Virus record (IMG/VR): IMGVR_UViG_3300010885_048794 | Span: 1-27,706 of that record | Direction: 5' to 3' (one strand) | Source of the DNA: a virus | DNA length: 27,706 bases | Shown here: piece by piece, positions 113-27,426 of the stretch | How the letters are laid out: every line of letters begins with the position of its first letter | Numbering within the stretch: the stretch's first letter is position 1 | Notes under the pieces: model-generated | Seen by the model: only the letters and a program-made list of their open reading frames with translations | The model's database searches: none | Told to the model about the DNA's origin: nothing | Translations under genes and position numbers: made by a program

Positions 113-577
113 ATGGCTAATGGTAAAACATACGGTATTGCGTTCCCTTTTAATATTTCTACAGATGGTAAGTATTTAAAACTTACTGAAACAGCAAATG
201 ATGAAATAAGAACTGACTTAATACATTTGTTATTAACAAGAAGAGGTTCGAGATATTTTTTACCTGATTTTGGTACAAGATTATATGAATATATATTTGA
301 ACCTATGGATAGCCCAACATTTAATAATATTGAGGCGGATATTAGAGAGGCATGTGAAAGATATATGCCACAACTAAAAATAACTAACATATCAATAAAA
401 GCGGCATCTGACGAAGAGGAAGTGAATGTTGTTACAACCACAGGAAATATAATAAATAAACAACAATATGCAATGCCGGGTAAATCAATTGCTGAATATA
501 CTGCAAAGGTGAGAATTGATTATGCAATAACAGATGATGTCTTTGGTTCTAAAGATTTCGTAATACTTAATATTTAA
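113..577 (+). CDS. Baseplate wedge subunit, T4 gp25 / P2 gpW-like
   Basis: A 154-residue protein of the gp25/GPW lysozyme-like baseplate family. In T4-type phages this protein sits in the inner baseplate next to the gp6-gp7-gp53 wedge core and helps start sheath assembly. Visible family features are the N-terminal stretch turning into a helix with IRTDLIHLLLTRRGSR (about residues 32-47), then FLPDFGTRLYEYIFEP (about 49-64), the characteristic Pro-Asp-Phe-Gly turn and hydrophobic helix. Length is close to the usual 130-150 residues. The ATG at 113 lies 11 bases after the upstream stop, with no Shine-Dalgarno sequence, only an A/T-rich leader. The gp6-like gene follows 6 bases downstream, the order expected of a wedge operon. 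An opposite-strand reading frame across it is a shadow. Confidence 0.9.
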   Translation: MANGKTYGIAFPFNISTDGKYLKLTETANDEIRTDLIHLLLTRRGSRYFLPDFGTRLYEYIFEPMDSPTFNNIEADIREACERYMPQLKITNISIKAASDEEEVNVVTTTGNIINKQQYAMPGKSIAEYTAKVRIDYAITDDVFGSKDFVILNI

Positions 578-583
578 TATTAT

Positions 584-2425
584 ATGGCAGAAAAAAGAAT
601 ATCGTATACGGTAAGAGATTTCCAAGCGTTAAGAACGGAACTTATAAATTTTACAAAAATTTATTATCCTGATTTAATTGACAATTTTAATGATGCGTCA
701 ATTTTTTCAGTTTTATTAGATTTAAATGCTGCTATATCAGATAATTTACATTATCACATAGATAGAAGTATACAGGAAACTGTATTACAATATGCTCAAC
801 AAAAGTCATCTATTTTTAATATTGCTAGAACTTATGGATTAAAACTCCCTGGACAAAGACCCTCAGTTGCGTTAGTTGATTTTTCTATCACAGTTCCAGC
901 TAATGGTGATAAGGATGATGAAAGATATGAGGGTGTTTTAAGAAGAGGTAGTCAAGTAGTTGGTGCGGGACAAATTTTTGAAACAATGTATGACATTGAT
1001 TTTAATTCTCCGTATAACGCTCAAGGGGAACCTAATAGATTAAAAAAACCTAATTTTAACGGTAATAATATTTTAATTAATTATACAATTACAAAAAGAG
1101 AATTGGTTGTTAATGGTATTACAAGGGTGTTTAAGCAATCAATAACTCCGAATGATGTTAGACCATTTTTTGAATTATTTTTACCTGAAAAAAATGTTTT
1201 GGGAATAACTGCGGTAATACAAAAAGATGGTACTACATATGCTAATGTACCTACCGCTCAAGAATTTTTAACCGACAATGGTAAATGGTATGAAGTTAGT
1301 GCTTTGGCGGAAGATAGAGTTTTTATCGAAGACCCTACTAAACCGTCAGATAGACCTGGATTAAAGGTTGGTAAATATATAACAACTAACAATAGATTTA
1401 TTACCGAATATACACCAGAAGGGTATTTAAAGATGACCTTTGGTGGTGGTAACGTTTCTGCGGATGAACAATTAAGAGAGTTTGCTAGAAATGGTATTAA
1501 CGTACAACCAATGCAATCTTATTTAAATAATTTTTCTTTGGGTAGTGCTTTGAAACCTAATAGTACTATATTCGTACAATATAGGGTTGGCGGTGGATTA
1601 GGAACTAATTTGGGAGTTAATGTTATTAATCAAATAGGTAATGTTTCGTTTTTTGTTAATGGTCCTTCTGAAGATACAAATACATCTGTTGTTAATTCAT
1701 TAAGATGTAATAACGTTACTGCGGCGATTGGAGGAGCAGGATTACCAACGATTGAGGAAATAAGAAACTTTGTTAGCTTTAATTTTGCGGCTCAGAAGAG
1801 AGCGGTTACTGTTAATGACTATGAGTCGTTAATTAGACAAATGCCGTCTCAATTTGGAGCGCCAGCTAAAGTTGCTATTATTGAGGACGATAATAAAGTT
1901 AGGATTAAGATACTATCTTATGATACTTCAGGTACGTTAAGTCAAATAGTGTCAAATACTTTAATTAATAATATTGCAGAATACTTATCAAACTTTAGAA
2001 TGTTAAATGATTATATAGCGGTTGAGACTGCTGAAGTTATTGATTTAAGTATGGATGTTGCAGTTGTGTTAGATTCCACACAAAATCAAGGAACTGTAAT
2101 TACTTCTATTATAAATAAAATAACAAATTATTTTAATCCTCTAACAAGACAATTAGGTCAAAACGTAAATATTTCAGAAATTAATAGAATTTTACAATCA
2201 GAAAACGGAGTTATATCTGTAACAGGAATACAGATATTTAACGAAGTTGGTGGGCAATACTCTTCATCCGAAACATCTATGGAGTATATTGATGCGGCGA
2301 CTAAAGAAATCGGTCCTATTGATGGTACTATATTTGCATTACCAAATCAAGTATATCAAATTAGATATCCAAACAAAGATATTAGAGTTAGTGTTAAAAA
2401 TTTCCAAACAGTCTCTATTAGTTAA
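584..2425 (+). CDS. Baseplate wedge subunit, T4 gp6 / baseplate J-like
   Basis: A 613-residue protein, close to T4 gp6 (about 660). In T4, gp6 dimers with gp7 and gp53 form the ring that holds the baseplate wedges together; P2 gpJ and type VI TssF are equivalents. Supporting features are the N-terminal YTVRDFQALRTELINF, then YPDLIDNFNDASIFSVLLDL with an aspartate-rich helix (about residues 28-49), and the strongly typical AQKRAVTVNDYESLIRQMP (about 403-421), where gpJ-type proteins have an [AR]-V-T-x-x-D-Y-E segment. The C-terminal third has the alternating strand/helix pattern of the same family (NPLTRQLGQNVNISEI). It starts 6 bases after the gp25-like stop and ends at TAA; a 95-base gap then separates it from the next block. 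Confidence 0.9.
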   Translation: MAEKRISYTVRDFQALRTELINFTKIYYPDLIDNFNDASIFSVLLDLNAAISDNLHYHIDRSIQETVLQYAQQKSSIFNIARTYGLKLPGQRPSVALVDFSITVPANGDKDDERYEGVLRRGSQVVGAGQIFETMYDIDFNSPYNAQGEPNRLKKPNFNGNNILINYTITKRELVVNGITRVFKQSITPNDVRPFFELFLPEKNVLGITAVIQKDGTTYANVPTAQEFLTDNGKWYEVSALAEDRVFIEDPTKPSDRPGLKVGKYITTNNRFITEYTPEGYLKMTFGGGNVSADEQLREFARNGINVQPMQSYLNNFSLGSALKPNSTIFVQYRVGGGLGTNLGVNVINQIGNVSFFVNGPSEDTNTSVVNSLRCNNVTAAIGGAGLPTIEEIRNFVSFNFAAQKRAVTVNDYESLIRQMPSQFGAPAKVAIIEDDNKVRIKILSYDTSGTLSQIVSNTLINNIAEYLSNFRMLNDYIAVETAEVIDLSMDVAVVLDSTQNQGTVITSIINKITNYFNPLTRQLGQNVNISEINRILQSENGVISVTGIQIFNEVGGQYSSSETSMEYIDAATKEIGPIDGTIFALPNQVYQIRYPNKDIRVSVKNFQTVSIS

Positions 2426-5500: not shown

Positions 5501-7272
5501 TTTCAAATCCGTTAATATCATATGTTAATAATATTGTTTTTGGTAATACTAAAGATGTTACTTCAAAAACAATTAATAGATATTATTCAGGGTCAATTAA
5601 CGATAGTGATACTAATTATACATCAAACGAGTCTTTAGTTGGTGGTACATATAGAATGGGTACAAATACTACAGATTATATTTTTAGTCCTATATATCCA
5701 TTGACTAATAGTTTATCTATGTCAGATAGGTCTAAAATTGTTATGAGGTCTGATAGATTACCGTCGACACAAAATATTCAAATTACAAATGATAATGTTA
5801 AAATTTTACAAGATAACGCAAATACAACTGTTCATATAATAAATAACGGTACTATAGTTTCTATTTTACCTTACATACCATCACAACAATACAATAATAA
5901 TTATGACCCATCATACACAGCGGACACTGCCGGATTACCAGCAACCGTATTCGATACGTTTGATTGTACTAAAATGAAGGCGTTACCTTGCTATAGTAAT
6001 GAGGGACTTGCGTTATCAATAACTAATCCTTGTAAATATAATTATGTAACAAATGGATGTTATGAATTGGTCAAAATACCTCTTTTTGGTCTTATTTCAC
6101 CAGTACCATGGTCTAATGACCGAATCATATTAACAGAATATTTAGAAAGATTAAAATTCTTCTATCAATTATGCCAAGAGAGTGTTTCAAATGTTTTTAA
6201 TAATAATTGGATAAATGGTAATTTATACGCCTTTCCTTTTAAAGTTGCGACATATTTTAATTCTAACAATCAAGTAAGTGCAAGAAAGTATGCAAAAAGA
6301 TTGGTAATCTTACATGAAGAAACAAATAATTTTTATTATAGGTCATCGCCATATACTCAAAGCAGGTTGTTTATTGGTGCACCATCGGTTACTCCAATTA
6401 AGTATGGTTCTAATGTTAGAAATTTAAAAAATCCCACAACAATTTTAAATATGGGGCCTAAAAGTAATTTATTGGGTAGAACTACATTAAGTTCTAATTT
6501 TGATGGTTATAACATAAATAAAATTTCACAAACAAGTTATAATAATATTGATGATTTGTTAAATTATTACGTATTTGCTAGACTAACAAGTTCTAACTTT
6601 TTGTTTGGAATAACAAGTGTTAGACAATTTTTTAACAGACCGGGATTAAAAATTGATGGTGATTTTGCGCAGACAGTGGGAATTAATTCACAGATAGGTA
6701 TTGTTCCGTTTGATGGAGATTTATATAGTTCTCAAAATCCAAATCCGTCAATAATTGCGGTTGCGCCCAATTCATCTTCACCATTCCCTATTTTAGGGGT
6801 GTATTTTTCATCAACAACTAATGATATCCAAATTAGAGATTTAATATCACCTGGTAGAATTTTAAGACCTAATTCAACCTATACTTTCCCTTGTGATTAT
6901 TTAACTATTAAATCCCAAGTTGTACCTCATTATAAGTGGAATGTCGTACCTAGTGGTGTTACGATGTGGGGTAATTCGTTTAATAATTGGGCTACAAACA
7001 CAAATGATATTGTACAAAATATAAAATATCAAAAGTTGGATAGAAGAAGTAGTGGGTATCCAATTGCGGGCTCAATCAGTAATGATTATAATATTAGAGG
7101 TTATTTATATAATGTTGATGCTAATGGAAATTATAGTGTAGTACCTAATGTTACCCCTAATCCGGCATTAGGTGGTGCTCCTTGGTATTTTTATTTTGGT
7201 GTTACAAAAGGAAAAACGGCAATAAACAGATTTTATACCGCATACATCGGAGAAACTAATTTAAATGAGTAA
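2521..7272 (+). CDS. Giant virion/baseplate-associated protein with regulatory-like beta domain and internal membrane segments
   Basis: A 1583-residue protein of unknown exact role. Residues about 48-170 contain two stretches (GVIAGRVYANNGYGIPNAKV and YTVTTNDSGDYMIFGVPVGT) typical of carboxypeptidase-regulatory-like/transthyretin-type beta domains, common in Bacteroidota and their phages. Residues about 506-560 are continuously hydrophobic, enough for two membrane spans, followed by a Cys-rich piece (CTGKTC, then YPDCDMCDC at about 589-597). The region from about 600 is Asn/Thr/Ser-rich and looks like extended beta structure. The C-terminal 450 residues are compact, with motifs such as NNWINGNLYAFPFK (about 1222-1235). 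There is no signal peptide. The start at 2521 has a nearby AAGGA. It overlaps the next gene by 8 bases (ATGAGTAA), suggesting translational coupling. Location between gp6- and gp7-like genes suggests a baseplate or fibre-attachment component. Confidence 0.65.
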   Translation: MGQSYRIRTTPGDDKNIVIQVDQDFEQLEILSLKIRQEDVYDRMCSDYGVIAGRVYANNGYGIPNAKVTVFIPVTNEDLLNPTISAIYPFKNLEQTNEDGYRFNILPYEPSYDGHIATGTFPTRLDVLNNQTVSYLYNKYYRYTVTTNDSGDYMIFGVPVGTQTIVMNVDLSDIGQFSMTPQDLIRLGLASQGDFDGVNFKKSPNFNILPQIVVINKTIEIIPFWGQPETCQIGITRSDFDLTNNGNVEIKPTAIFMGSLMSSHERSSIKSNGVPQKSTGDLCKMIAGPGEIIGITQTIDLDYDGLPILVRADLPESGKLIDADGAWMFDLPMNLDYVYTNEFGQQVLSKDPKVGVPTRGKYRFKIKWQQSKNLNEDFKRGYFLVPNIREKGWDDNNPDRDPLSGLLGTLAYDKAQKSYAFSLNWSAYTTSPVSVSNTDILEAINCEDTFYDFDYNKVYTVSEFIDNEKSHRNRERFLSIKRIDEDTCQDTTNRYPVNDAVFHTSIQFIIFNIILTLLSPILYIIVTVYSILAFVWYVIVNIIFVVLCVICGIIYVLTFGSVNCTGKTCGNIGDDSISFPPLRLPMITYPDCDMCDCKVGNNEDAGQIVQNTPVSNQNSLPSYGFFAGLSNTETYRQIVTNNFTTLFPSFNSLTDLDPVLKVLSGEGIVVSNGVTYSTNQLPFSERINSFNVKAKYYNDNGGINQISVRYAPSIATNSTSHYDNTLTFIIPVNLLGNFSSSTMFTMVDPTTSLDPNITGNTTNQYGTNNTTGTTVYPSQITISYSNPSNRIGNLQKIYTLPANFTDTLVYSNASDVEYYQVITGITINDFINISNTTPINGSFGDILKGSMTITKNGGTPQTVNFKDVIDGGQYAVLVVQRGVDPYSPLYNTEIGLGKLFGYTNHSHNLVTTDLRLNIPIKNINLSLGGANGNEMLFMNNLATNNSTPNNGQNLFFNSYIFTPSTDYLSYNTTFHNFYSRLDSSILTVPPPVFVSNPLISYVNNIVFGNTKDVTSKTINRYYSGSINDSDTNYTSNESLVGGTYRMGTNTTDYIFSPIYPLTNSLSMSDRSKIVMRSDRLPSTQNIQITNDNVKILQDNANTTVHIINNGTIVSILPYIPSQQYNNNYDPSYTADTAGLPATVFDTFDCTKMKALPCYSNEGLALSITNPCKYNYVTNGCYELVKIPLFGLISPVPWSNDRIILTEYLERLKFFYQLCQESVSNVFNNNWINGNLYAFPFKVATYFNSNNQVSARKYAKRLVILHEETNNFYYRSSPYTQSRLFIGAPSVTPIKYGSNVRNLKNPTTILNMGPKSNLLGRTTLSSNFDGYNINKISQTSYNNIDDLLNYYVFARLTSSNFLFGITSVRQFFNRPGLKIDGDFAQTVGINSQIGIVPFDGDLYSSQNPNPSIIAVAPNSSSPFPILGVYFSSTTNDIQIRDLISPGRILRPNSTYTFPCDYLTIKSQVVPHYKWNVVPSGVTMWGNSFNNWATNTNDIVQNIKYQKLDRRSSGYPIAGSISNDYNIRGYLYNVDANGNYSVVPNVTPNPALGGAPWYFYFGVTKGKTAINRFYTAYIGETNLNE

Positions 7273-9031
7273 TAGAATAGATACTAAAATAGTCTTAGGT
7301 TCAAAAAGATATAAGTCGGCAATAAATACCGATTTATCAGTTCAAGTGCCTTTAGTCAATACTCAAAAAGAAATGGATGAGTTTGATAGGAGTGCTTTGG
7401 TTAATCTTGCACAAATCTTTGATGACGAAAGACAAAAGTCGAGTATTTTTAGATTAAGTGGTGGAATTGATTTAATATTTTACAATGCTTATAGTGGTGT
7501 AACCACAATAAATGGTGTGGATTATAAACCATTTACAAATAATTTATATTATGTAAATTCACAAAATTCTTATTTAACCAACGCTTGGTCTGGATATCCT
7601 CAATATTCTGAGTTTGATATGGTTAGAATTGATAACGATGTTTCGGGATATACTAGTTATTCAGGAACGACTCCTCCACATATTAATTTTGTTAATCAAA
7701 GTGCATCTACGTATAATTGGATGGAGTATATTAGTTATCCTTATGAGAATGATTATAATAGAGTTTTACAATATTTTAGAACGCCTAATAATTCCTCAAC
7801 ATGGGTTTCGGGGGATGGGCTACCGTTTTATGTTGTTAATCCGTATATATCTAACGGACAAAGTTTAATATCCTTTGTTTGTCCTGTTGAGCATAACTTA
7901 TCTGAAGGAGAATATGTTGAGTTAAGTATTGCAGGTTGGAACGGATATAATGGAATTAAAACATTTCAAGTATTCTCTTTAGGTAATGAAGGTTATAATT
8001 CTGATAAGTATGTGTTTAATCTTTATAATAATGGTTATACGGGTACTACATTTTTTAATTCGGTTGAGGGTACGTTTAAAAGAATTATAGATATTAATAA
8101 TTCAGCTGAAACTAAATCAATATATTATGTTCGAAAACATAAAATCATTACAAATATTAATGAGACTATTTTAACTAAAGCTGCGTTTAGTTTAATTGGG
8201 TTTAGTAATAAAAGACAGTTTGAATATTGTTCTTTAACTCCTGACCAAACATCGAGAGTAACTCAAAAAGAGGGAAATCAAAGTTATTTGATATCTTTTT
8301 CTAAAGATATTGACATTTCATTATATAGGGATAACTTAAATAGACCAATAACCGAATTATTCATAACAATAATTAATAGAGGTTATTTTGGATGGATGAA
8401 TGCACCAATTGTTTCTAATTTAAGTGTTAGAGAAGGATATGAATATAATTTAACTACTTCGGTATCACCATATTGGAGTCTAACAAATTTTAATGTTAAC
8501 ATATCAAATATAGAAAATACTTCATATACAAGAACCCAAGGAACTAATGTTTTTACTTTTTATTATAATAAAGAGTTAGTTAGTGGTGACACACTAAACG
8601 GAGATTTTTGTGAGTTTAATAAATTTGAACAGAAAGAAAGGGTTGTTTCTAACATTTATCATAAATTATGGATTAACCCATTTTTATTTAAAACAAATCA
8701 AAACCCAACTTTAAATCCTAATGGTTATTATTATAAACCACATCATGGAATTAAATTACGAGAATACTCAGATTATATTGAGGAAGGAATTTTAGATGAT
8801 ATAGATAACGTACCATATTATGCTTACTACTCAAGCTATAGTAATAAATTAATATGGAGAGACTTATATACTTATGGATATAAAGATGATAATGGAAATG
8901 GGGTTGATTATCCGTTTTTGAATGGAACTCATTACCCACCAACTAAAATAATTTTTAAATTATTTCCTGAAGGAAATATTAAAGAGAATATATCAGCAAT
9001 TGCTGACCCAATAACAGATGGCTGCGAATAA
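7265..9031 (+). CDS. Putative phage structural protein, 588 residues, unknown function
   Basis: I do not recognise a named family. The protein is rich in Tyr, Asn and Ser, has no signal peptide or membrane segment, and reads as beta-rich. The N-terminus (TKIVLGSKRYKSAINTDLSV) is basic. The C-terminal part holds aromatic patches such as YYYKPHHGIKLREYSDYIEE and DYPFLNGTHYPP, the kind of conserved aromatic stretches seen in virion proteins. Its ATG lies within the last codons of the preceding gene (8-base overlap) and its end overlaps the next gene by 14 bases. It is thus part of one translationally coupled cluster with flanking structural genes. Structural role is inferred from context only. 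Confidence 0.6.
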   Translation: MSNRIDTKIVLGSKRYKSAINTDLSVQVPLVNTQKEMDEFDRSALVNLAQIFDDERQKSSIFRLSGGIDLIFYNAYSGVTTINGVDYKPFTNNLYYVNSQNSYLTNAWSGYPQYSEFDMVRIDNDVSGYTSYSGTTPPHINFVNQSASTYNWMEYISYPYENDYNRVLQYFRTPNNSSTWVSGDGLPFYVVNPYISNGQSLISFVCPVEHNLSEGEYVELSIAGWNGYNGIKTFQVFSLGNEGYNSDKYVFNLYNNGYTGTTFFNSVEGTFKRIIDINNSAETKSIYYVRKHKIITNINETILTKAAFSLIGFSNKRQFEYCSLTPDQTSRVTQKEGNQSYLISFSKDIDISLYRDNLNRPITELFITIINRGYFGWMNAPIVSNLSVREGYEYNLTTSVSPYWSLTNFNVNISNIENTSYTRTQGTNVFTFYYNKELVSGDTLNGDFCEFNKFEQKERVVSNIYHKLWINPFLFKTNQNPTLNPNGYYYKPHHGIKLREYSDYIEEGILDDIDNVPYYAYYSSYSNKLIWRDLYTYGYKDDNGNGVDYPFLNGTHYPPTKIIFKLFPEGNIKENISAIADPITDGCE

Positions 9032-9332
9032 ATATAAAATATTATTACCAAAAAATTCTGACAAAGAAATCAATATTCCTATTGAGATGACATGGGATTT
9101 ATTAGATAGAAGTGATAGTCTTGTTGATTTTGAAAAAGAAACAATAAGTGAAGTAATTAATCAGGATAAAGATTTTGAGGTTGCGAGGTTTACTCATTAT
9201 CATAATCCATATTCTGAAACAACAGATATTAATTATGAGTTTAATTTTGTACCTTCAGGTGCTACAAGTGCCACCACTTTTTGGGCTTCATCATATATTG
9301 TACAAGGATTTACGGCGGATGAGATATATTAG
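9018..9332 (+). CDS. N-terminal fragment of a structural protein cut by an in-frame TAG
   Basis: This 104-codon stretch starts at an ATG inside the end of the previous gene (14-base overlap) and stops at TAG 9330-9332. The same frame continues without another stop to TAA at 9819-9821, and the residues after the TAG (YANSFKKSFFKLDFYDS) read smoothly on from those before it (GFTADEIY). The natural gene is therefore probably one 267-codon frame, 9018-9821, interrupted at codon 105. What is visible is an acidic/charged N-terminal half (KILLPKNSDKEINIPIEMTW) followed by a Thr/Ser/aromatic stretch. Family not recognised; baseplate-associated by context. It could be a real short protein, a nonsense mutant, a readthrough product, or a sequence error. 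Confidence 0.6.
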   Translation: MAANKYKILLPKNSDKEINIPIEMTWDLLDRSDSLVDFEKETISEVINQDKDFEVARFTHYHNPYSETTDINYEFNFVPSGATSATTFWASSYIVQGFTADEIY

Positions 9333-9363
9333 TATGCTAACTCATTTAAAAAATCTTTTTTTA
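9330..9363 (+). other. In-frame TAG with overlapping restart ATG and T TTT TTA heptamer
   Basis: TAG at 9330-9332 is followed by an ATG at 9334-9336 in the +1 frame. That frame runs CTA ACT CAT TTA AAA AAT CTT TTT TTA and meets a canonical -1 slippery heptamer, T TTT TTA, at 9357-9363. A -1 slip there returns to the frame used by the downstream 151-codon stretch. So the arrangement offers two ways to make the downstream part: reading through the TAG, or restarting at 9334 and slipping. All of this is seen in the sequence; whether either happens is unknown, and T runs are common in A/T-rich DNA. Confidence 0.4.
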
Positions 9364-9365
9364 AA

Positions 9366-9821
9366 TTGGATTTCTATGATAGTACAAATCAGAATGTCCA
9401 ACAGAATTATATTACAGTTATATTACCAACACAACAAGGATTAACAACACCTGAATTGGTTAGTAAATCGATACAACAGGTTAAAAAACCAACATTTAAA
9501 TTGGATTTTTTGGGTGACAAAGAAGGATTTTTTATTTACTGGTTAAAAAATAAAGATTTTATTAATTTGGACACTTTTTATATGACTGCTAAGTTTTTTG
9601 ATGCAAAGACAGGAATTTTTATTAAAATGATGAATAGGTCTCAGGCGACGTTAACGGGAATAAATAAATTTAATTTCCCACAGGAATTTTATTTATATTA
9701 TAAGGTTGTTTTAAATTATACTGACTACACTTATAAAGTGTATGATATTAATACTGGTTTTGATGTTTTGGTTGGGGATAGTTTAAATCTCATAAAATGG
9801 TATGAATATATTAATCCATAA
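9366..9821 (+). CDS. C-terminal fragment of the TAG-interrupted structural protein
   Basis: Open frame of 151 codons if the TTG at 9366 is taken as start, but this start is doubtful. Coding character extends back to the TAG at 9330-9332 (YANSFKKSFF just before), and the first in-frame ATG is at 9582, deep inside. The frame equals that of the 9018 fragment, so this is best read as the second part of one gene. Visible features are LDFYDSTNQN, YITVILPTQQG, then FKLDFLGDKEGFFIYWLKN, and a C-terminal beta-rich part ending in IKWYEYINP. No signal peptide or membrane span. The TAA overlaps the ATG of the next gene (TAATG), so expression of this part would couple to the gene at 9821. Family not recognised. 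Confidence 0.6.
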   Translation: MDFYDSTNQNVQQNYITVILPTQQGLTTPELVSKSIQQVKKPTFKLDFLGDKEGFFIYWLKNKDFINLDTFYMTAKFFDAKTGIFIKMMNRSQATLTGINKFNFPQEFYLYYKVVLNYTDYTYKVYDINTGFDVLVGDSLNLIKWYEYINP

Positions 9822-11937: not shown

Positions 11938-14888
11938 TGGCGAGAAAGTTTTATAGATATCCACCAAGACCATCAAGCGGTGCTGGTACCTTTTCTGACA
12001 ACATAGTTGGTTTACAACTTGTTGATGGGGGAGGACTTACCCAAGGTAATTTTGAATTTACCACATCGGTTGTTGAGAAGGTTAATAGGTATTTTGATAT
12101 AGGGTCTTTCTCGGAACCAATATCTTTAAATACGTTAAATATTAATAGTGTTGCCGAATCTCGAGCAATATCGGCTAAAGAGTTTAGAGTATATCCTAAT
12201 TTTGATTTAAGTGAAATAACTAAATTTAATTTATACGGTTCTTTAACTAAAAGATTATCAACTTCAGTACAAAAGGTAATTAATTTTTTTCCGGCCGCTT
12301 TAGAAATAACAAATTTAGGGTTTGATTATACGACGGGTTATACCGCAATAAATTGTGTATTTGATGATGTGGATAATCTTACTACATTTGAAATTAATGT
12401 TAGTAAAATATCAAATCCATTGGCGATTGATTTTTCGGTTAATGCAACCAGAAATATTTCTCTTTTAGATTATGAGGTATCACCATTAAGAAATCTTACA
12501 ACACAATATTTTAAATATTCTTTATTTATTCGTGATGAGGAATTTCCGGTGTTGAGTTTTGTACCATCAAATAGTTTATATTCAGGAGTTATAGAATTTA
12601 CTGTAAATGGAAATCCGTTTTCAGGTCGGTCAGTGTCAATAGAAGATTTGGTTATTAGACCAAATAGTTATTATACTGATAAGTCGTTTATAGAACCTTT
12701 TGATGAGGTTGAGCAATTTTTATTAAATAGGTTAATAGTTCCTTTATATACGGCAACTTTTCAAGTACCAAAACAATCTGAGGATGGTACACTTTATACT
12801 AGTTATCAAAAAGTTACATGGCCAATAGACGGTATATGGAATTTGGATATACGAACAGTCGCTTTTGATAATTATTTAGTAACTTTAAATGATATAGCCG
12901 TTTCGTTTGATGAGAATAAAACTAATTTAATTACGAGGTTTTTAACAACGGATGCGTTTAAGGAGTTTGATACCGATGACCAAAGAGTACAAAAAGTACT
13001 ATCAATATATGGTAGAAGTTTTGATGAGGTTAAGAAATTTATAGATACTTTAGGGTACATGAACTCAGTTAACTATACTGTTAAAAATGACATACCTTCA
13101 CAATTACTCAAAAACTTAGCCGAAACGTTAGGATGGAAGACAAGTATGTCACCAATACAAAATGATGATTTCTTAGATTCGGTTTTTGGTAATAATAGTA
13201 AAAAACAATACGCTGGTTATTCGAGAGCTGAAACTCCTGTGGAATTAAACTACCAATATTATAGGAATTTAATATTAAATTCCGCATATCTTTTTAAATC
13301 AAAAGGTACACGTAAATCTATAGAATGTTTATTGAGATTGGTAGGTGCTCCTGAGGCGTTAATAGAGTTTAATGAACATATTTACATTGCGGGACAAAGA
13401 ATAAACATGGCGGATTTTAATAGGAGATACGCTCAAATATCGGGTGGTACTTATGTTGATGAAATCCCTGTGTATGATAATACAACATTTAGTATTTTTG
13501 GTCATCAGTATTCTGGATTTACAACACAAAAAACTGTTATAGATACTAATGTTGCTTTTGAAGATTTCCCTGTGGATTCTATAGGTTATCCAAAAGCACC
13601 TCCTGATACACCCAATTACTATTTCCAAAAAGGTGCTGGTTGGTTTGAGTTAGTTAATAGTCACCAAAGTCCTCTTCAAGTAAATTATACTGCTAGTACA
13701 TTTACAGGCCAAAATTTTGATGTTCAAACAGAATTTGAACAATTTACATATGGTCAAAAATATTTAGATAGGTTTAGAAGATTTCCTTATATGAAAACGG
13801 GATTTAGATTAAACAAAACTATTGATAATAAAAAAAGTTGGCCCACAAATGATGTTGGTTTAAGAATTGGAAGTCAGGATTCTGGTTATGAGGCGTATTA
13901 CAGTGTGTATAATGATAAGTTAGCGTTAAATGTTAAAAACATTGATTTGTTTTTAAATCCGTCTCAGGGTATACTATATGATATATGGTATATGTCAAGA
14001 AAGTATAATTATCCAATACCTAATACAGGGTTAACATCACCATATCCACAACCTGGAGGAATAGATTGGACATTTATTAATCCACAACCAGCTAAAAAAT
14101 CATTTTTTGAGTTTGCCCAAACTTTTTGGTTAAACATGATTAATGTTAGGAATAGATTAACAAGTACAGACGGTAAAACAAGTGGGTATCCAACATTATC
14201 TTCGATTTATTGGAAATACCTTTTATCCATGGAATTGGCCGGAATACCAAATGATAATTTTACATATCAAACAATGATTGATTATGTGAATGGTTTGGGT
14301 GATTATTGGATTAGACTTGTCGAGCAAATGATTCCGGCAACAACTATATGGAATACGGGTATTAAATACGAGAATTCGATATTTCATAGACAAAAATTTG
14401 TTTATCGAATACAAAGAGGATGTCAAATTTTACCAGTTCCTTGTGAACCATGTACATTAATCGGTGACTTGTTTAATTATAGTTGTATTGAGGAATCGGT
14501 TGCTTGTCCTATTTATCCTTGGTCAACGTCAACAGCGCAATCTTTCAGTGATATTTTAAATCAAACGGTTACTAATTATATAAACACAAATTCTTTAACA
14601 TGTAATACTAACACATTAATAACTGATTGGTATATTGATTTAAAAATTGCGGGGCAATTATTGATACAAGAAAAAATATATACAGGTTTTGGATTATTAG
14701 ATGTTCCGAGTAATAGTTATTGGAAACAATCATTAGAGAATAAATTAACAGGATTAATTAATGATGGGTTTAATTATTTAATTAGTGGAGATACTTTATA
14801 TATTTCTACTTCAGGGTGTTTACCAAAATATGAAGGTAAAGAATTTCAGTTAAACGTAGGATTAAATTTTAATATAACTTGTAATTAA
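11937..14888 (+). CDS. Baseplate wedge protein, gp7 / P2 gpI-like
   Basis: A 983-residue protein, near the size of T4 gp7 (about 1030). Residues about 345-480 carry features of the P2 gpI-type fold: VQKVLSIYGRSFDEVKKFID, an LPS/QLLKNLAETLGW stretch, and the motif KGTRKSIECLLRLVGAP (about 456-472), where gpI-family proteins have a K-G-T followed by an amphipathic helix. In T4, gp7 partners gp6 and gp53; P2 gpI partners gpJ. Later there is a beta-rich insertion and an aromatic/charged segment IPATTIWNTGIKYENSIFH (about 799-817), then a Cys-rich tail (CQILPVPCEPC and further cysteines). Start and stop both form TAATG overlaps with neighbours. The gp7/gpI assignment is by motif and context; a structural comparison would settle it. 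Confidence 0.65.
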   Translation: MARKFYRYPPRPSSGAGTFSDNIVGLQLVDGGGLTQGNFEFTTSVVEKVNRYFDIGSFSEPISLNTLNINSVAESRAISAKEFRVYPNFDLSEITKFNLYGSLTKRLSTSVQKVINFFPAALEITNLGFDYTTGYTAINCVFDDVDNLTTFEINVSKISNPLAIDFSVNATRNISLLDYEVSPLRNLTTQYFKYSLFIRDEEFPVLSFVPSNSLYSGVIEFTVNGNPFSGRSVSIEDLVIRPNSYYTDKSFIEPFDEVEQFLLNRLIVPLYTATFQVPKQSEDGTLYTSYQKVTWPIDGIWNLDIRTVAFDNYLVTLNDIAVSFDENKTNLITRFLTTDAFKEFDTDDQRVQKVLSIYGRSFDEVKKFIDTLGYMNSVNYTVKNDIPSQLLKNLAETLGWKTSMSPIQNDDFLDSVFGNNSKKQYAGYSRAETPVELNYQYYRNLILNSAYLFKSKGTRKSIECLLRLVGAPEALIEFNEHIYIAGQRINMADFNRRYAQISGGTYVDEIPVYDNTTFSIFGHQYSGFTTQKTVIDTNVAFEDFPVDSIGYPKAPPDTPNYYFQKGAGWFELVNSHQSPLQVNYTASTFTGQNFDVQTEFEQFTYGQKYLDRFRRFPYMKTGFRLNKTIDNKKSWPTNDVGLRIGSQDSGYEAYYSVYNDKLALNVKNIDLFLNPSQGILYDIWYMSRKYNYPIPNTGLTSPYPQPGGIDWTFINPQPAKKSFFEFAQTFWLNMINVRNRLTSTDGKTSGYPTLSSIYWKYLLSMELAGIPNDNFTYQTMIDYVNGLGDYWIRLVEQMIPATTIWNTGIKYENSIFHRQKFVYRIQRGCQILPVPCEPCTLIGDLFNYSCIEESVACPIYPWSTSTAQSFSDILNQTVTNYINTNSLTCNTNTLITDWYIDLKIAGQLLIQEKIYTGFGLLDVPSNSYWKQSLENKLTGLINDGFNYLISGDTLYISTSGCLPKYEGKEFQLNVGLNFNITCN

Positions 14889-17800
14889 TGGCATTATTAG
14901 ACTATACAATATTAGTAACGGGGGATTGTCAGAACACAAGTTCTGGTATTTTGGAATTATTTCCAGTGGATGGTGCGGGTCCATATACTGTTGATTGGTA
15001 TAATCCTAATTTGGGTGTTGATACAACAGTAACTACGAGTTCTGTAAGGACGGGGTTATCGGCGGGAACATACCAAGTTATGATTACTGATACGACAACA
15101 CCAACGAATCAGGTACTGTACGTTAATTTATATGTATCTTCGGGTGTTTGTCTCAGTACTGAATCTGTTAATACGACATGTAGTTATGACAATGGTTATC
15201 TAATAGTTACCGCAACAACAGATTATTCACCTGTTAGTTATTATTTATATAGTCTTAATCACGGATATATAACATCGGCTAGTACCTTAGTTGGGTTTCA
15301 AATATTTAACAATTTAAGTGCGGATACGTATTACGTTGAGGCATTTGACGATGGCGGATGTAGTGGAAGTACCGCAACATGTTTAATTCAAGATTCGATA
15401 GAGTTTGATTTTGGTATATTTGTAATTAACGATTCTAATTGTAGTGGTATTGACAACGGTAAGTTGTATGTGACGGGACAAACAGTTGGTTCTCCATACA
15501 CTTATTTGTGGTCTAATGGTGAAACAACATCAACTATAACAGGACTTACGGCAGGTACATATAGTGTTACGGTAACAAATAGTTTAGGTTGTGTTAAAAC
15601 AAAAACAGCAACAGTTGTTAATGTTGATAGTTTAAACATTGTAACTTATTTATTAACAAATCCAAATTGTTTTTCATCTGATGGTGAAATAACACCGATA
15701 ATAACAGGAGGAACACCACCATATTATTATCAATTATCTAATGGTGATACTCAAATAACTTATACTACTTCTCCAACATTTACTGGTTTATCTTCAGGTA
15801 TTTATTCATTAACTGTAACAGATGCTGGTTTATGTGTGGCTAGTGGGGGTACAGCATTATCCACTTTAGATTCATTTACGGTTATTGGGGTAACTATTAC
15901 ACCTTCATTTTGTAATGCGAATAATGGAACTATTAGTGTTTCGGTTCAGGGGGGTAATACACCATATACTTATATTTTAACAAATTCTCTTGGTTATTCG
16001 TATATAAGTGCAACAACCTCAACAAGTTTTGTATTTGCTAATTTATTATCTGACACATACCATTTAACAATATCAAATTCTAGTAACTGTCAATATGAAG
16101 CGGACATGACAATTATTAATCAAGATAAGTTTACTCTTGACGCTTTATCTGTAAGTACTACTTGTGGGTTAGATAACGGACAAATAACTTTATCTGTTAA
16201 TACGGGTGGTACTTATACTTATGAAGTTGCTGGTTATTTGCAAACAACGACTTTAACATCGGTAACATATAATAATATCGCAACAGGTGTTTATCTTGCA
16301 AGCGTCACAGACCAAACAGGTTGTAAACAAAGTACTTATGTTTTTATTGGTGATAGTAACCCTGTTCAGTTTAGTTTAATTAATAGTGGGTGTGGTACGG
16401 GTAGTGATGGTACTATAACAGCCGCGATTACAAATGGAATACAACCACTTACATTAGAATGGTCATCAAATGTTGGTGCTCAATCTGGAATATTTGTTAC
16501 GGGTCTAACAGCGGGAACCTATAGTTTAAAAGTTACTGATTCTAATGGATGCACTTTAACAAAACAAACTACAATAGATTGTCTTGGTAACTATAAAACA
16601 TATTCTATTTTTAATATTTGTGATGATAAGTTTGTTGACACTCAATCAACAAAAACTGGAATATCTCAAATGTTTAACCAAGGATATCAAGATTTAATAC
16701 AGGGAGATATTAACTGTAAACTAACAAGTGCTGATTTTATTTTATTGGTGAACGTTGGAGGAACCGCATATACAAGTAATTTCTACACCTCAACATCTTT
16801 GACTGATTATCCGACAGACCAACAATATGTTGACTCATTAAATGCGATATTAGAAACCATACCAGGTATTGGAGCTATAATTATAAGTCTAATAGATAAT
16901 TCTATAGTTTTAAATACAGATTGTAGTTACTCATTATCCGATATTAACTTAAGTGTTAATTTATTAATAGATTATAATATTTGTTGTATGGATTTCCCAC
17001 AATGTATTTTATTATATTATGATTTAATAAACGGAACACCAATCCAACCTCAATTACCACCTATATTACCGTCAGTTACACCGATTATTTTTACATCAGG
17101 TAGTACAATTAATGGTTATAATTCTTGGGTTGGAAGTGTTAGTGGTAATCCGGTCACGTTATATTATAATACAACTAATTCAAGATGGGAAACAAGTGGA
17201 TTTACCAATTTTTCATTTATCGAAAGTTTCCAATACTTTAGTCCGATTGGAAATTGGGTTAATATGGGAAATCCTAATTATTATTTAGTAACACAAGAAG
17301 GTTCGGGTTTAGATTGTCTTGAGTCAAATTTACAGTTAAGGTTTAATTCAGATGGTTTTAGTTCACAAAACATATATATAGAAGGTACGGGTAATTTTGA
17401 TATGAGAATAAATTGGGGGGACGGAACAACAAATGATTATATTGGGGATTCAGTATATAATTTTTCACGAGCATATTCACAACCCGGAGTATATACCGCA
17501 ACAGTAACTTTAAGTAATGTTAGTGTGTTTTATTTAGGGATTAGCAATAGTAATCTTGTATTGATATCGGGGGTTGAGACATTGGTAAATTTAAACTCAT
17601 TATTTTTAAATGATAATCAATTAACTTCATTTGACCCAACATTACCATTACCAAGTTTATTGGCGTTATTAGATTTAAATAATAATCAATTAACTTCATT
17701 TAACCCAACATTACCATTACCAAGTTCATTACAAACTTTAAGTTTATATAATAATCAATTAACTTCATTTGACCCGGTATTACCATTACCAAGCTCATTG

Positions 17801-18739
17801 ACGATTTTAATATTATCATATAATTTTTTAACTTTGTTTAGTCCTACGTTACCATTACCAAATTCATTAAATTATTTGATTATTGATAATAATCAACTAA
17901 CTTCATTTAATTCGACAGTATTACCAAATTCATTATTTAGATTAAATTTAGGATTTAATCAATTAACGTCATTTGACTCAACTTCATTACCAAGTTCATT
18001 AGGGGAATTATATATAAATAATAATTTACTAACAATATTTGACACAACTTCATTACCAAGTTCATTAGGGGAATTATATATAAATAATAATTCACTAACA
18101 ATATTTGACTCAACTTCATTACCAAGTTCATTAACTAAATTATTTTTAAGTTATAATCAATTAACTTCATTTGACACAACTTCATTACCAAGTTCATTAC
18201 AAGAATTATATGTTGATGCTAATTTACTAACGTCATTTGACTTAACTTCATTACCAAGTTCATTAAGTAAATTATTTTTAGGTTTTAATCAATTAACTTC
18301 ATTTGACTCAACTTCATTACCAAGTTCATTAATTGATTTATTTTTACCAGGTAATCAACTAACAATATTTGATACGACTTCATTACCAAGTTCATTAGTT
18401 AGATTATTTTTAGAAGGTAATCGATTAACAATATTTGATACGACTTCATTACCAAGTTCATTAATTTGGTTAACTTTATATAGTAATAGATTAACAACAT
18501 TTAATTCTACGACAACATCACTTAATTCGTTAAATACTTTATGGTTAAGTAGTAATGAACTTGCAACTTCAGATATTACTAATATTTTTATTAATCTATC
18601 AAATACTTCTGTTTCTTATGGTTATTTTAATTTAGTGAATCAAACAACAGGAGGATGTTTTGATAATACTGGTGCTGGAAATATTGCGTATGATAGTTTA
18701 ATTAGCCAAGGTTGGGGTATCAATGTTGACTTCTGTTAA
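14888..18739 (+). CDS. Chimeric phage adhesin: SprB-type repeats, PKD-like domain, leucine-rich repeats
   Basis: A 1283-residue protein built of modules. Residues about 13-563 hold seven divergent SprB-type repeats of 60-75 residues, each with a form of TGLTAGTYSVTVT-x-x-x-G-C. SprB is the gliding adhesin of flavobacteria, and such repeats are a Bacteroidota hallmark. Residues about 565-720 hold a different domain starting YKTYSIFNICDDKF, not recognised. A PKD-like domain follows (INWGDGTTND, W at 843; YSQPGVYTATVTL). Residues 910-1222 are fourteen leucine-rich repeats of 22-23 residues with an N-x-L-T-x-F-D-x-T-x-LPSSL pattern, and a short cap ends in GINVDFC. No signal peptide or membrane span, as expected for a virion protein. 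It is coupled to the gp7/gpI-like gene by TAATG, suggesting a baseplate-attached adhesin or fibre. A role in binding host surface polymers is inference. Confidence 0.75.
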   Translation: MALLDYTILVTGDCQNTSSGILELFPVDGAGPYTVDWYNPNLGVDTTVTTSSVRTGLSAGTYQVMITDTTTPTNQVLYVNLYVSSGVCLSTESVNTTCSYDNGYLIVTATTDYSPVSYYLYSLNHGYITSASTLVGFQIFNNLSADTYYVEAFDDGGCSGSTATCLIQDSIEFDFGIFVINDSNCSGIDNGKLYVTGQTVGSPYTYLWSNGETTSTITGLTAGTYSVTVTNSLGCVKTKTATVVNVDSLNIVTYLLTNPNCFSSDGEITPIITGGTPPYYYQLSNGDTQITYTTSPTFTGLSSGIYSLTVTDAGLCVASGGTALSTLDSFTVIGVTITPSFCNANNGTISVSVQGGNTPYTYILTNSLGYSYISATTSTSFVFANLLSDTYHLTISNSSNCQYEADMTIINQDKFTLDALSVSTTCGLDNGQITLSVNTGGTYTYEVAGYLQTTTLTSVTYNNIATGVYLASVTDQTGCKQSTYVFIGDSNPVQFSLINSGCGTGSDGTITAAITNGIQPLTLEWSSNVGAQSGIFVTGLTAGTYSLKVTDSNGCTLTKQTTIDCLGNYKTYSIFNICDDKFVDTQSTKTGISQMFNQGYQDLIQGDINCKLTSADFILLVNVGGTAYTSNFYTSTSLTDYPTDQQYVDSLNAILETIPGIGAIIISLIDNSIVLNTDCSYSLSDINLSVNLLIDYNICCMDFPQCILLYYDLINGTPIQPQLPPILPSVTPIIFTSGSTINGYNSWVGSVSGNPVTLYYNTTNSRWETSGFTNFSFIESFQYFSPIGNWVNMGNPNYYLVTQEGSGLDCLESNLQLRFNSDGFSSQNIYIEGTGNFDMRINWGDGTTNDYIGDSVYNFSRAYSQPGVYTATVTLSNVSVFYLGISNSNLVLISGVETLVNLNSLFLNDNQLTSFDPTLPLPSLLALLDLNNNQLTSFNPTLPLPSSLQTLSLYNNQLTSFDPVLPLPSSLTILILSYNFLTLFSPTLPLPNSLNYLIIDNNQLTSFNSTVLPNSLFRLNLGFNQLTSFDSTSLPSSLGELYINNNLLTIFDTTSLPSSLGELYINNNSLTIFDSTSLPSSLTKLFLSYNQLTSFDTTSLPSSLQELYVDANLLTSFDLTSLPSSLSKLFLGFNQLTSFDSTSLPSSLIDLFLPGNQLTIFDTTSLPSSLVRLFLEGNRLTIFDTTSLPSSLIWLTLYSNRLTTFNSTTTSLNSLNTLWLSSNELATSDITNIFINLSNTSVSYGYFNLVNQTTGGCFDNTGAGNIAYDSLISQGWGINVDFC
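14924..16576 (+). repeat. Seven SprB-type protein repeats
   Basis: The encoded repeats begin at about residues 13, 95, 180, 255, 340, 425 and 500. Each starts near a Cys-containing segment (for example NCSGIDNGKL, TCGLDNGQIT), passes a PYTY or similar turn, and ends with a G-x-Y-x-[VL]-x-[VI]-T/S-D/N motif and a glycine-cysteine pair. At the DNA level the copies are clearly diverged, unlike the leucine-rich repeat array further on, so this is an older duplication series or several acquisitions. Confidence 0.7.
17615..18553 (+). repeat. Fourteen-unit leucine-rich repeat array, 66-69 bp units
   Basis: Units run without interruption from the AAT codon at 17615. The first four and the last are 23 codons; the nine between are 22. 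Units 6 to 13 are nearly identical in the section encoding TTSLPSSL (ACTTCATTACCAAGTTCATT), while the section encoding the variable L-x-L-x-x-N part differs between units. This is the pattern of bacterial LPSSL-type leucine-rich repeats, where the variable residues line the concave binding face. High DNA identity suggests recent expansion or ongoing recombination. Confidence 0.9.
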
Positions 18740-18811: not shown

Positions 18812-21800
18812 ATGGCTCAATGGTGTGCGACTTGTTGTAGAGACATTCTCCCAAATGATTGCGGAGGTAATACAAATCCAAATGCTACGGTTTTTTGTGA
18901 TAATAATATTGCCATCTATGGCGGAGACCAAGGAGTGTATGTTGACGTTAACGGTATTTGTTGGTGTATTGAATATGAATTAACAGATACGACACAATCT
19001 AATACTACTTATCCCGGCCCGCTACCTTGGCCAACTTTTGACGGTGTAAATTTCTTTTTAAATGCTAATGCAAATTGTGCGGTTTGCGTTTCTCAAAACG
19101 GAAATATACCTTGTCCTAGTAAAGATATAACTACCCCAACTCCAACCCCAACCAGAACAAGTACTCCAACTCCTACAAATACTTTAACTTTAACTAGAAC
19201 TGTAACCCCTACTCCGACAAACACTCCTACAAATACAACAACGTTAACTGCTACACAAACACCAACATTAACTAATACCCCAACTAAGACATTAACTTCC
19301 ACACCTCCAAGTACTGCAACTCAAACAGTTACTACCACACCTACAAATACTCCTACTAATACAACGACGTTAACTGCTACGCCAACAAAAACTTTAACGA
19401 GTACTCCGACTCAAACAATCACTTCTACGCCAACTCAAACAGTGACATCAACGTTAACTGTAACTCCGACACAAACTTTAACTAATACTCCGACACAGAC
19501 TTCTACTAATACTCCGACACCTACAAAAACTGTTACTGCAACACCGACAAATACGCCAACATATCCACCACCAACACCGACAAATACGCCAACAATAACT
19601 GTAACTAATACAAATACTAATACACCGTCACAACCCATCCCAACTGAGACTCCGACTCCAACACAAACAGTTACTTCGACTCAAACACCAACATTAACCA
19701 ATACACCAACATTAACCCAAACTCTAACGAATACACCAACTAACACACAAACTCTAACTAATACTCAAACACAGACTGTTACGTCAACACCAACACAGAC
19801 GGTAACTAATACTCCTACACAAACTGTAACTAATACTCCAACACAAAGTGTTACGGCAACTAATACTCCAACATTAACTAATACTCCGACACCTACCACT
19901 ACAGTTACAAGTACACCAACGGCGACCGTAACGTCAACACCAACAACAACTTTTACTAACACTCCGACTCAAAGTGTTACACCAACCCAGAGTGTAACAC
20001 CAACTCAAACGGTTACTGCGACCTTAACTCAGACATCAACACCTACTTTAACTGCGACCTTAACTCAGACATCAACACCTACTTTAACTGCAACTGCAGG
20101 ACCTACAAGTACTGCTACGAATACACCTACAGTAACTCCAACATTAACATCCACACCAACAAATACTCCAACATTCCCAATACCTACAAATACTCAGACT
20201 GTAACTCAAACTTTAACTAGAACATTAACAAATACGCCAACTAATACATTAACTCAAACAATAACACCAACTTTAACATTAACTTTAACAAGCACACCAA
20301 CTCCAACTACAACGCAAACAGATACTCCAACACCAACGGTGACGAGCACTCCAACAACTACGTTAACTCAGACGGTAACTCAAACTGTAACAACGACTCC
20401 AACACAAACACCTACAAATACGACTACAGTGACTCAAACTGTTACCAGTACTCCTACAACAACTTTAACTAATACTCAAACTCAAACGGTTACAAGTACA
20501 CCAACTACAACTGTTACGGCAACACCAACACAAACTGTAACGAATACTCAAACGGTAACATCCACACCAACTCTTACTCCAACAAACACATTAACTAACC
20601 CTCAAACTCAAACACCGACCCCAACAGTAACGGCAACTCCAACTAATACGCCAACATATCCACAACCAACACCTACTCAAACATTAACTCAAACTTTAAC
20701 TGCAACAAACACTCAAACACCTACAATAAGCTTAACTCAAACATTAACTCAAACATTAACTCAAACATTAACTAGTACGCCAACACCAACAACAACTTTA
20801 ACTAATACACCAACTACAACTGTTACGGCAACACCAACACAAACTGTAACGAATACTCCAACGACCACTCAAACTAATACACAAACTGCAAGTCAAACAC
20901 CAACAGTGAGTGTTACGGCGACTTTAACTGTTACTCCAACAAATACACCGACAAACCCTCAAACAGTAACACCAACAAAAACTGTGACTGCAACACCAAC
21001 TAATACACCAACATATCCAATACCGACAAATAGTCCTACTTCAACACCAACTTTGACAGCGACTAATCCACAAACATCAACGCCTACACCAACCTCAACA
21101 CAGACATTAACGCCTTCAAAAACTCCTACAAATACACCATCACCAACATTAACTAATACCCCAACACCTACTGATACCGTTACTCCTACACCAACAACTA
21201 CGTTAACGAATACACCAACTGCGACAATCACAAGTACTCCAACAACAACTTTAACTAATACTCCTACAACAACTATTACTGCAACTCAAACATTGACTAA
21301 TCCTCAGTTAACACCAACAAATACAACAACTAACTATCAAACCGTAACTCCAACTAAAACGTTAACCCCAACACCAACAAATACACCTACATACCCACAA
21401 CCAACAACAACTCAAACTGTTACTCAAACTGTTACTCAAACATTAACTCAAACTTTGACAAATACCTTAACTCCATCAGCGACAGTTACAAGTACACCAA
21501 CAACAACTCTGACTAACACTCCTACCACAACATTGACTAACACTCCTACAACAACTTTAACTAATACTCCAACACCAACATTAACTAATACTGTTACAAA
21601 AACAACAACACAAACTAATACACCTACTCGTACACAAACTAACCCTAATACGGCAACACCAACACCGACATTAACAAATACACCAACTAATACACCGACA
21701 TTCCCACAACCAACACCAACATTAACAAGAACAAATACTCCAACTAATACTAATTTTAATACTGCAACACCAACGCCAACATTAACTAATACTCCGACTA

Positions 21801-23053
21801 AAACTGTAACCGCAACAGTTACATTAACAAGAACTGTTACTCAAACACCAACAAATACAACAACTTTAACTTCTACACCAACGCCAACAGTAACAAATAC
21901 TCCAACAAAAACTGTCACCGCAACACCAACTAAGACTGTTACTAATACACCAACAACCACACAAACAAATACTCCAACAAAAACATCAACAAATACACCA
22001 ACACCAACACCAAGTCAAACCGTTACTAGTACACCTTCACACACACCAACAAAAACTTTAACATCAACACCAACTAATACAAGAACGTTAACACCAACTC
22101 AAACATTAACATCAACTTTAACTCAAACTCCAACTAATACTCAAACTCAGACATTAACATCTACTTTAACTTTAACACCAACTAATACACAAACATTAAC
22201 AAGAACATTAACTAGTACACCAACACCAACAACAACTTTAACTAATACATTAACAAGAACTCCAACTAATACTCCAACACCAACTAAGTCAGGTATTATA
22301 CCAACACAAACTCCTACAAGAACTGTAACTCCAACTAATACTCCTACAAGAACTGCGACTTTAACACCAACAGTTACACAATTTTTGAATTGTGTTCATG
22401 GAATTGAGATAGAAGAAATACCGGACCCAACAAAAGTACAAGTATGTTACTCAATTCTTTATTTCTGTTTAAATTCTCACGCATATATAACAACTGGAGG
22501 TACATATACTGCGACATCATTCTGTCAAATGTTAACAATAGGAAGTGTTAATAGTGTAACAGGTGTTTCTATAGGTGATTCAGTGATTGATGGGTGGAGT
22601 CTTGATGGTATTAATTTAATTACAACTAATAATACATTAACTTTTACTGCAACTAGTACTTCTACTCATTATTATCTACATTTAAACAATCAGAAATCAT
22701 GTGTAATGTCTTTACAATTTTGTTACTTTACTAGTTTTGATGTATATAATATGTGTACAAGCTGTTTTGACCCTGTTACGTTATATACATATGTTAATGA
22801 CTATAATAATGCTGGCATTACTGGAGTTAGGTGGTATACAGACATTAATCTAACTACATTAGCAACACCGGGGTATTATGTGTTAAATATGCCACCATAC
22901 ACGAATCAACCTATATTCCAAATGAATTCAGGTATAATTAATCCTACTAATCATTTTATACAGGTTGCTAATTGTGATAGTGTTGCAGATATGTATTGTT
23001 CACCAATACCAACAAATACACCAACACCAACAAATACACCGACACGTATTTAA
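18812..23053 (+). CDS. Fibre protein with a 1080-residue Thr/Pro stalk between two Cys-containing domains
   Basis: A 1413-residue protein in three parts. Residues 1-106 form a Cys-rich N-terminal domain ([13 protein letters not shown], then CWCIEYE and [13 protein letters not shown]), probably a compact head or anchor. Residues 107-1190 are a low-complexity stalk where nearly every second residue is Thr and the residue between is mostly Pro, Asn, Leu, Val, Gln, Ser, Ala or Lys. Residues 1191-1395 are a globular domain with several cysteines ([15 protein letters not shown], then CYSILYFCL), ending in another short Thr/Pro tail. The stalk may be an extended, possibly glycosylated spacer that holds the C-terminal domain away from the virion; this is inference. 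No signal peptide. Minus-strand frames of Val/Gly repeats over the stalk are shadows. Structural context suggests a tail fibre or head decoration. Confidence 0.75.
20015..20086 (+). repeat. Exact 36-bp tandem duplication in the stalk array
   Basis: Bases 20015-20050 and 20051-20086 are identical, encoding two copies of [12 protein letters not shown] (12 residues). The length is a multiple of six, so both the reading frame and the Thr alternation are kept. It looks like a recent slippage or recombination event. Confidence 0.85.
20497..20858 (+). repeat. 53-bp exact direct repeat pair in the stalk array
   Basis: Bases 20497-20549 recur exactly at 20806-20858, 309 bases downstream. Both copies encode the same residues ([17 protein letters not shown]). 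The repeat is longer than the average similarity of the array, so it likely reflects a segment copied within the array. Confidence 0.8.
20732..20773 (+). repeat. Three and a half copies of a 12-bp unit
   Basis: TTAACTCAAACA repeats exactly three times from 20732 to 20767 and starts a fourth copy (TTAACT). It encodes the TLTQTLTQ pattern, and is a likely site of length change. Confidence 0.8.
21506..21577 (+). repeat. 24-bp period tandem repeat in the stalk array
   Basis: Three consecutive 24-base units encode [16 protein letters not shown] and TLTNTPTP. The units differ at silent positions, so they are older than the exact 36-bp duplication at 20015. Confidence 0.7.
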
Positions 23054-26628: not shown

Positions 26629-27426
26629 ATGAGTAGATATATTAGAGTATCAATTTCACAAGGTTCATCATTAGGACCATACACTATTTACTATAATACC
26701 ATAAACCCTGTAAATATAGCGTCCATTTATAATGGTGTTGGACAACCGACACCATTGGCTAATAGTGTAACATTTGCCCAATTAACCAGTCCTACTTCTT
26801 TTATAGTGATAGTTCCGGATACGGCGACTCAAATAATTTTAGTTGATAATGTTAGTCCGTGTCCGCCAATAATACAAATAATACCTATACCGACATTAAC
26901 TCCGACATTGACTCCGACATTGACTCCGACACCTACTCGTCTTGTTGGAACTAGACTTACATTACAATGGGTGGTTAGACCTCAAGTACCTAATAATTTA
27001 CAAATAGCCACGGCGCCAATTATTAATAGTATATATCCGAATTCGTACACGTATGCGACATTAATTAGGAATGGTAATACAATAACTTCCCCAACATATC
27101 CTTTTCTTCCACCAACTTTAGTTACAAATAATAATGTTATTGTTAGTAGAACTGTTGATATTGCGACATTTATTACTCCAATTGATTCTAATTCTTTTGG
27201 TATATCAGGTGCTTGGACATACCCATCAGGAACGGTTAGTAATTTTACATTAAAAATTAATTTATATATTAATGGTATTCTTAAGACTACAACAACGATT
27301 AATCAAGGATGGACAACAGCACAATTAAATTCTACGGGTTTTGCTCAGTTATTAACTGGTAGTATATTTAGTGGTCCTGTAGTATTAAATAATTATGATA
27401 CTATATTAATAGAATATACGGTGTAG
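26629..27426 (+). CDS. Small fibre-like protein with a short Thr/Pro linker
   Basis: A 265-residue protein. Residues 1-75 form a small beta-rich domain, then SPCPPIIQII leads into a 16-residue Pro/Thr linker (88-103, PTLTPTLTPTLTPTPT), then a beta-rich C-terminal domain of about 155 residues (YTYATLIRNGNTI, AWTYPSGTVSNFTLKINLY). The linker is a miniature of the stalk in the 1413-residue protein, so the two probably belong to the same surface structure. It starts 22 bases after the FISUMP gene behind an A-rich leader. It ends with TAG, the only normal gene end here not using TAA, and the next base begins the stop of the minus-strand gene. No family recognised. Confidence 0.65.
   Translation: MSRYIRVSISQGSSLGPYTIYYNTINPVNIASIYNGVGQPTPLANSVTFAQLTSPTSFIVIVPDTATQIILVDNVSPCPPIIQIIPIPTLTPTLTPTLTPTPTRLVGTRLTLQWVVRPQVPNNLQIATAPIINSIYPNSYTYATLIRNGNTITSPTYPFLPPTLVTNNNVIVSRTVDIATFITPIDSNSFGISGAWTYPSGTVSNFTLKINLYINGILKTTTTINQGWTTAQLNSTGFAQLLTGSIFSGPVVLNNYDTILIEYTV
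26890..26937 (+). repeat. Four 12-bp units encoding the Thr/Pro linker
   Basis: CCGACATTAACT is followed by two copies of CCGACATTGACT and one of CCGACACCTACT. They encode PTLT three times and PTPT once. Unlike the long stalk array, CCG is used for every Pro, suggesting independent or recent expansion. Confidence 0.8.

Follow-up and report, generated by a model that had tools for sequence, protein, structure and literature searches.

Gene organization and the interrupted gene

The window, meaning the whole stretch of DNA that was analysed, is a linear virus record of 27,706 bases with 12 complete genes in a run on the + strand (Table 1). Because the first genes of this run encode gp25-like and gp6/J-like baseplate wedge subunits, the interrupted gene described here lies in a tail/baseplate block. 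Based on its gp6/J-like protein, which is approximately 26% identical to a homologue encoded in the baseplate block of Flavobacterium phage immuto (Immutovirus; 26.5% identity over 98%), the record probably comes from a large Bacteroidetes-infecting myovirus-like phage, although a Microcystis phage matches that protein almost as well. Two long proteins are encoded further along the window. The product of 14888-18739 (1,283 aa) has repeats that by eye are SprB/PKD-like, followed by a leucine-rich-repeat-like stretch (phrog_21719, phrog_6688). The product of 18812-23053, in the tail gene block, is a 1,413 aa Thr/Pro-rich low-complexity protein with TPT-type repeats and a non-repetitive, Cys-containing head and tail.

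Table 1. Features of the window that bear on the interrupted gene
Position	Strand	Feature	Basis or remark
113-577	+	Baseplate wedge subunit, gp25-like	phrog_261/phrog_43
584-2425	+	Baseplate wedge subunit, gp6/J-like	phrog_219
9018-9821	+	One gene, 267 codons and stop; uncharacterised structural protein	Homologues are single full-length frames (residues 1-267)
9018-9332	+	Part before the stop; 104-aa product if translation ends at the TAG	Without most predicted strands
9330-9332	+	TAG stop, codon 105	Homologue column Tyr (TAT/TAC) in 164/177, stop in 0/177
9366-9821	+	ORF after the TAG, called mechanically from TTG	No homologue starts there; not a separate gene
27424-27426	+	TAG as terminator of gene 26629-27426	

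The frame from ATG 9018 to TAA 9819-9821 contains exactly two stops, the terminal TAA and the TAG at 9330-9332. The residues that flank the TAG are GFTADEIY before it and YANSFKKSFFKLDFYDS after it. Downstream, the first in-frame ATG is at position 9582, while a TTG at 9366 opens a frame of 151 codons. An earlier note on this DNA had reported the frame, its single internal TAG and the lack of an in-frame ATG before 9582, and its coordinates and flanking residues are correct. The note had also proposed looking through the full genome for further in-frame TAGs in late genes; within the 12 complete genes of the window (9,014 codons), the TAG at 9330-9332 is the only internal stop.

Homologues and the residue at the TAG column

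A query restricted to the sequence downstream of the TAG identified 80 IMG/VR loci. In all 80, the tblastn alignment with the window protein continues past the TAG without a break (over residues 1-267 in most cases), and the open frames that contain these matches are full length (approximately 258-302 codons). The part before the stop, used alone, identified 28 further loci. Together with a pattern-based set, the two fragment searches yielded 226 loci and 177 distinct aligned sequences that span the TAG column. The residue in this column is Tyr in 164 sequences, Phe in five, Met in three, Leu in two, and Thr, Gln and Ser in one each, and a stop codon is found nowhere in the 177 aligned homologues. 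As Tyr was specified in the pattern behind the pattern-based set, an unbiased count comes from the earlier set, collected without it: 63 of 76 distinct proteins have Tyr at the column (45 TAT, 18 TAC) and none has a stop. The sequence comparisons thus strongly support the classification of 9018-9821 as one gene. The earlier note had claimed a single gene with protein-like sequence across the TAG, had proposed aligning homologues of both fragments, and had named consistently separate proteins in relatives as a result that would count against it; the alignment shows single full-length proteins, no homologue is split, and in the three closest relatives identity is the same before and after the TAG. 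Members of this protein family (motif EIYYYxNxFxKSFFKLDFYD) are widespread in viral metagenome contigs. Searches of Pfam, PHROGs and PDB sequences with the 9018-9821 protein identified no family, and, unlike the gp6/J-like gene that is matched in immuto, the family had no match in the sequenced-phage collection when two of its members were searched.

A degenerate DNA pattern of the conserved stretch after the column, with each codon class placed at the column, was also scanned against 2.9 million viral contigs. At least 120 stretches have TAY at the column; TAG matched one stretch and TAA/TGA six. All seven stop-pattern matches were rejected as homologues, being chance matches in unrelated frames or DNA, and so no homologue with TAG, TAA or TGA at the column was found among the 2.9 million contigs. 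The record of the window itself, and others very close to it, may be missing from these scans, such that a near-identical sister with the same TAG could escape them. The same proviso applies to an exact DNA pattern at the site (26 bases, with the last base of the codon free), which found no near-identical contig. No relative was found when host genomes were searched with the sequence surrounding the TAG.

Conservation is equal on the two sides of the stop. The three closest relatives are 73.1-74.0% identical to the window protein before the TAG and 73.5-74.1% identical after it (tblastn), and pairwise dN/dS against the same relatives is 0.17-0.19 before and 0.13-0.15 after, rough values as dS is near or above 1. 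The part downstream of the TAG is thus undecayed, which argues against an old pseudogene and is consistent with a substitution of very recent date, an erroneous base or suppression. The whole frame was modelled with AlphaFold2, with Tyr placed at the TAG column (mean pLDDT 78). In this model, codon 105 closes a short helix and nearly all of the confident strands (114-263) follow it, such that a 104-residue product would be without most of the fold. Foldseek gave one significant match, A0A6J5L9F8 of an uncultured Caudovirales phage (E-value: 1.1e-21, 25% identity), a single uncharacterised protein with a similar fold that is longer (380 aa) than the 9018-9821 product. Comparison of the model with PDB folds gave weak matches only (Z at most 4.8).

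Stop codon usage and alternative readings of the TAG

Eleven of the 12 complete window genes terminate with TAA and one with TAG. In relatives, orthologues of neighbouring window genes also end in TAG (12 for g2521 and 15 for g7265, counted without deduplication). In the nearest of the large relatives, a 192-kb contig that carries L003, a mechanical ORF count under the standard code gives 158 ORFs with a minimum of 100 codons, together covering 87% of the sequence; their terminators are 135 TAA, 16 TGA and seven TAG. ARAGORN predicts one tRNA-like gene in this contig, a Met-CAT, and no CUA tRNA. The search for a CUA tRNA that the earlier note had proposed was likewise negative in the window, itself a genome fragment, where no tRNA of any kind was found.

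These data bear on the possibility, raised in the earlier note by reference to crAss-like and Lak phages, that the late genes of this phage use TAG as a sense codon; a code 15-like reassignment or a phage suppressor tRNA would be the means. The interrupted gene is in a late structural block, and in crAss-like phages that recode TAG the codon is reassigned to Gln, for the most part in late genes, with suppressor tRNAs that are not always detectable and with one genome described at an early stage of gaining TAGs (PMC7886860). As the window is a fragment, the rest of the phage's tRNAs would also be outside it. However, the 9,014 late-gene codons contain a single internal TAG against 360 Gln codons, all CAA or CAG, the column is a Tyr and not a Gln column, and TAG still terminates a gene in the window, orthologous genes in relatives and ORFs of the 192-kb relative. 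Late-gene recoding is consequently very improbable. An equally small probability is assigned to the stop being tolerated through a Tyr-inserting amber suppressor of the host or through readthrough at a useful level. Insertion of Tyr would restore the family residue and would account for the equal conservation on both sides, but the latter is also expected from a very recent change or an error, none of the relatives has a stop at the column, and no positive evidence for suppression was obtained. Programmed readthrough would be marked by a stop conserved at the column in relatives; with none in 177 homologues and none from the collection-wide patterns, and with the TAG placed ahead of most of the predicted fold, it is unlikely.

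The remaining alternative is that the locus encodes two separate proteins, the second starting after the stop. Although the TTG at 9366 does open a frame, this reading is refuted by the unsplit homologues and its probability is negligible. In the predicted structure, moreover, a restart at this TTG would fall inside strand 114-120, and one at ATG 9582 inside strand 186-195. A broader proposal, in which a phage or host amber suppressor inserts Tyr or another residue and this contig represents the earliest step in a reassignment of TAG, with one internal TAG newly gained by a TAG-terminating lineage, is given a very low probability.

Origin of the stop and comparison with known systems

The TAG differs by one base from the consensus codon (TAT or TAC) and is absent from all relatives. 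Very likely, one base of a Tyr codon has been substituted in this contig alone, whether by a nonsense mutation of recent date or through an error in the consensus. The surrounding genes use the standard code, and the stop is unique among the sequences searched. The proposed explanation is as follows. A Tyr codon would have been changed to TAG in this contig only, in an otherwise ordinary gene of the tail/baseplate region. If the sequenced population carries this recent nonsense mutation, the gene would yield a 104-residue product or lose its protein, with readthrough low at best; otherwise the consensus base would be in error. If the change is real, loss of function would be expected. A nonsense change in a conserved gene of the tail block should be harmful, and to that extent an erroneous base or suppression by the host is favoured over fixation of the mutation. 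Among the three options offered in the earlier note, the nonsense variant and the sequence error stand, while recoding is not supported, given the lone TAG, the Tyr column, the TAG terminator and the absence of a CUA tRNA from both the window and the 192-kb relative.

Single stops of this type also occur in the relatives. With alignment tails past real gene ends (the extreme C-terminus) excluded, two other single internal stops were counted in 537,347 distinct aligned codons, approximately one per 270,000. Both are in homologues of the neighbouring gene 7265-9031 rather than of 9018-9821, and each is a lone stop in an otherwise intact gene, as in the window. L037:5358 (on the same contig as L132) has an in-frame TGA near the C-terminus with similarity on both sides. 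L166 has an in-frame TAG on the minus strand, at alignment residue 467 of 588, after which similarity continues to the normal end. At this rate, the expected chance of one such stop in a 9,014-codon (27.7-kb) window is approximately 3%. A lone stop is therefore uncommon, yet it is an ordinary find for a scan that picks out anomalies.

A lone in-frame stop in a metagenome-assembled phage gene should not be taken as evidence of recoding. Most of the question is settled here by the residue that relatives carry at the column, by the stop codons that neighbouring genes use and by how often singletons occur in the background. Were a suppressor involved, the locus would illustrate an incipient change of the code.

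Crass-like phages that use code 15 (TAG to Gln) resemble the window in having in-frame TAG in a late structural gene (PMC7886860, PMC9523058). They differ in having many late-gene TAGs (one in 9,014 codons here), Gln at the affected columns (one of 177 homologues here) and TAG unused as a terminator; the window has a lone TAG in a Tyr column, still terminates a gene with TAG and, within this fragment of the genome, shows no CUA tRNA, a gene that is common but not universal in such phages. The window also compares with metagenome-assembled phage genomes that carry one nonsense substitution or consensus error: there, too, one base is changed in one contig and the gene is otherwise intact.
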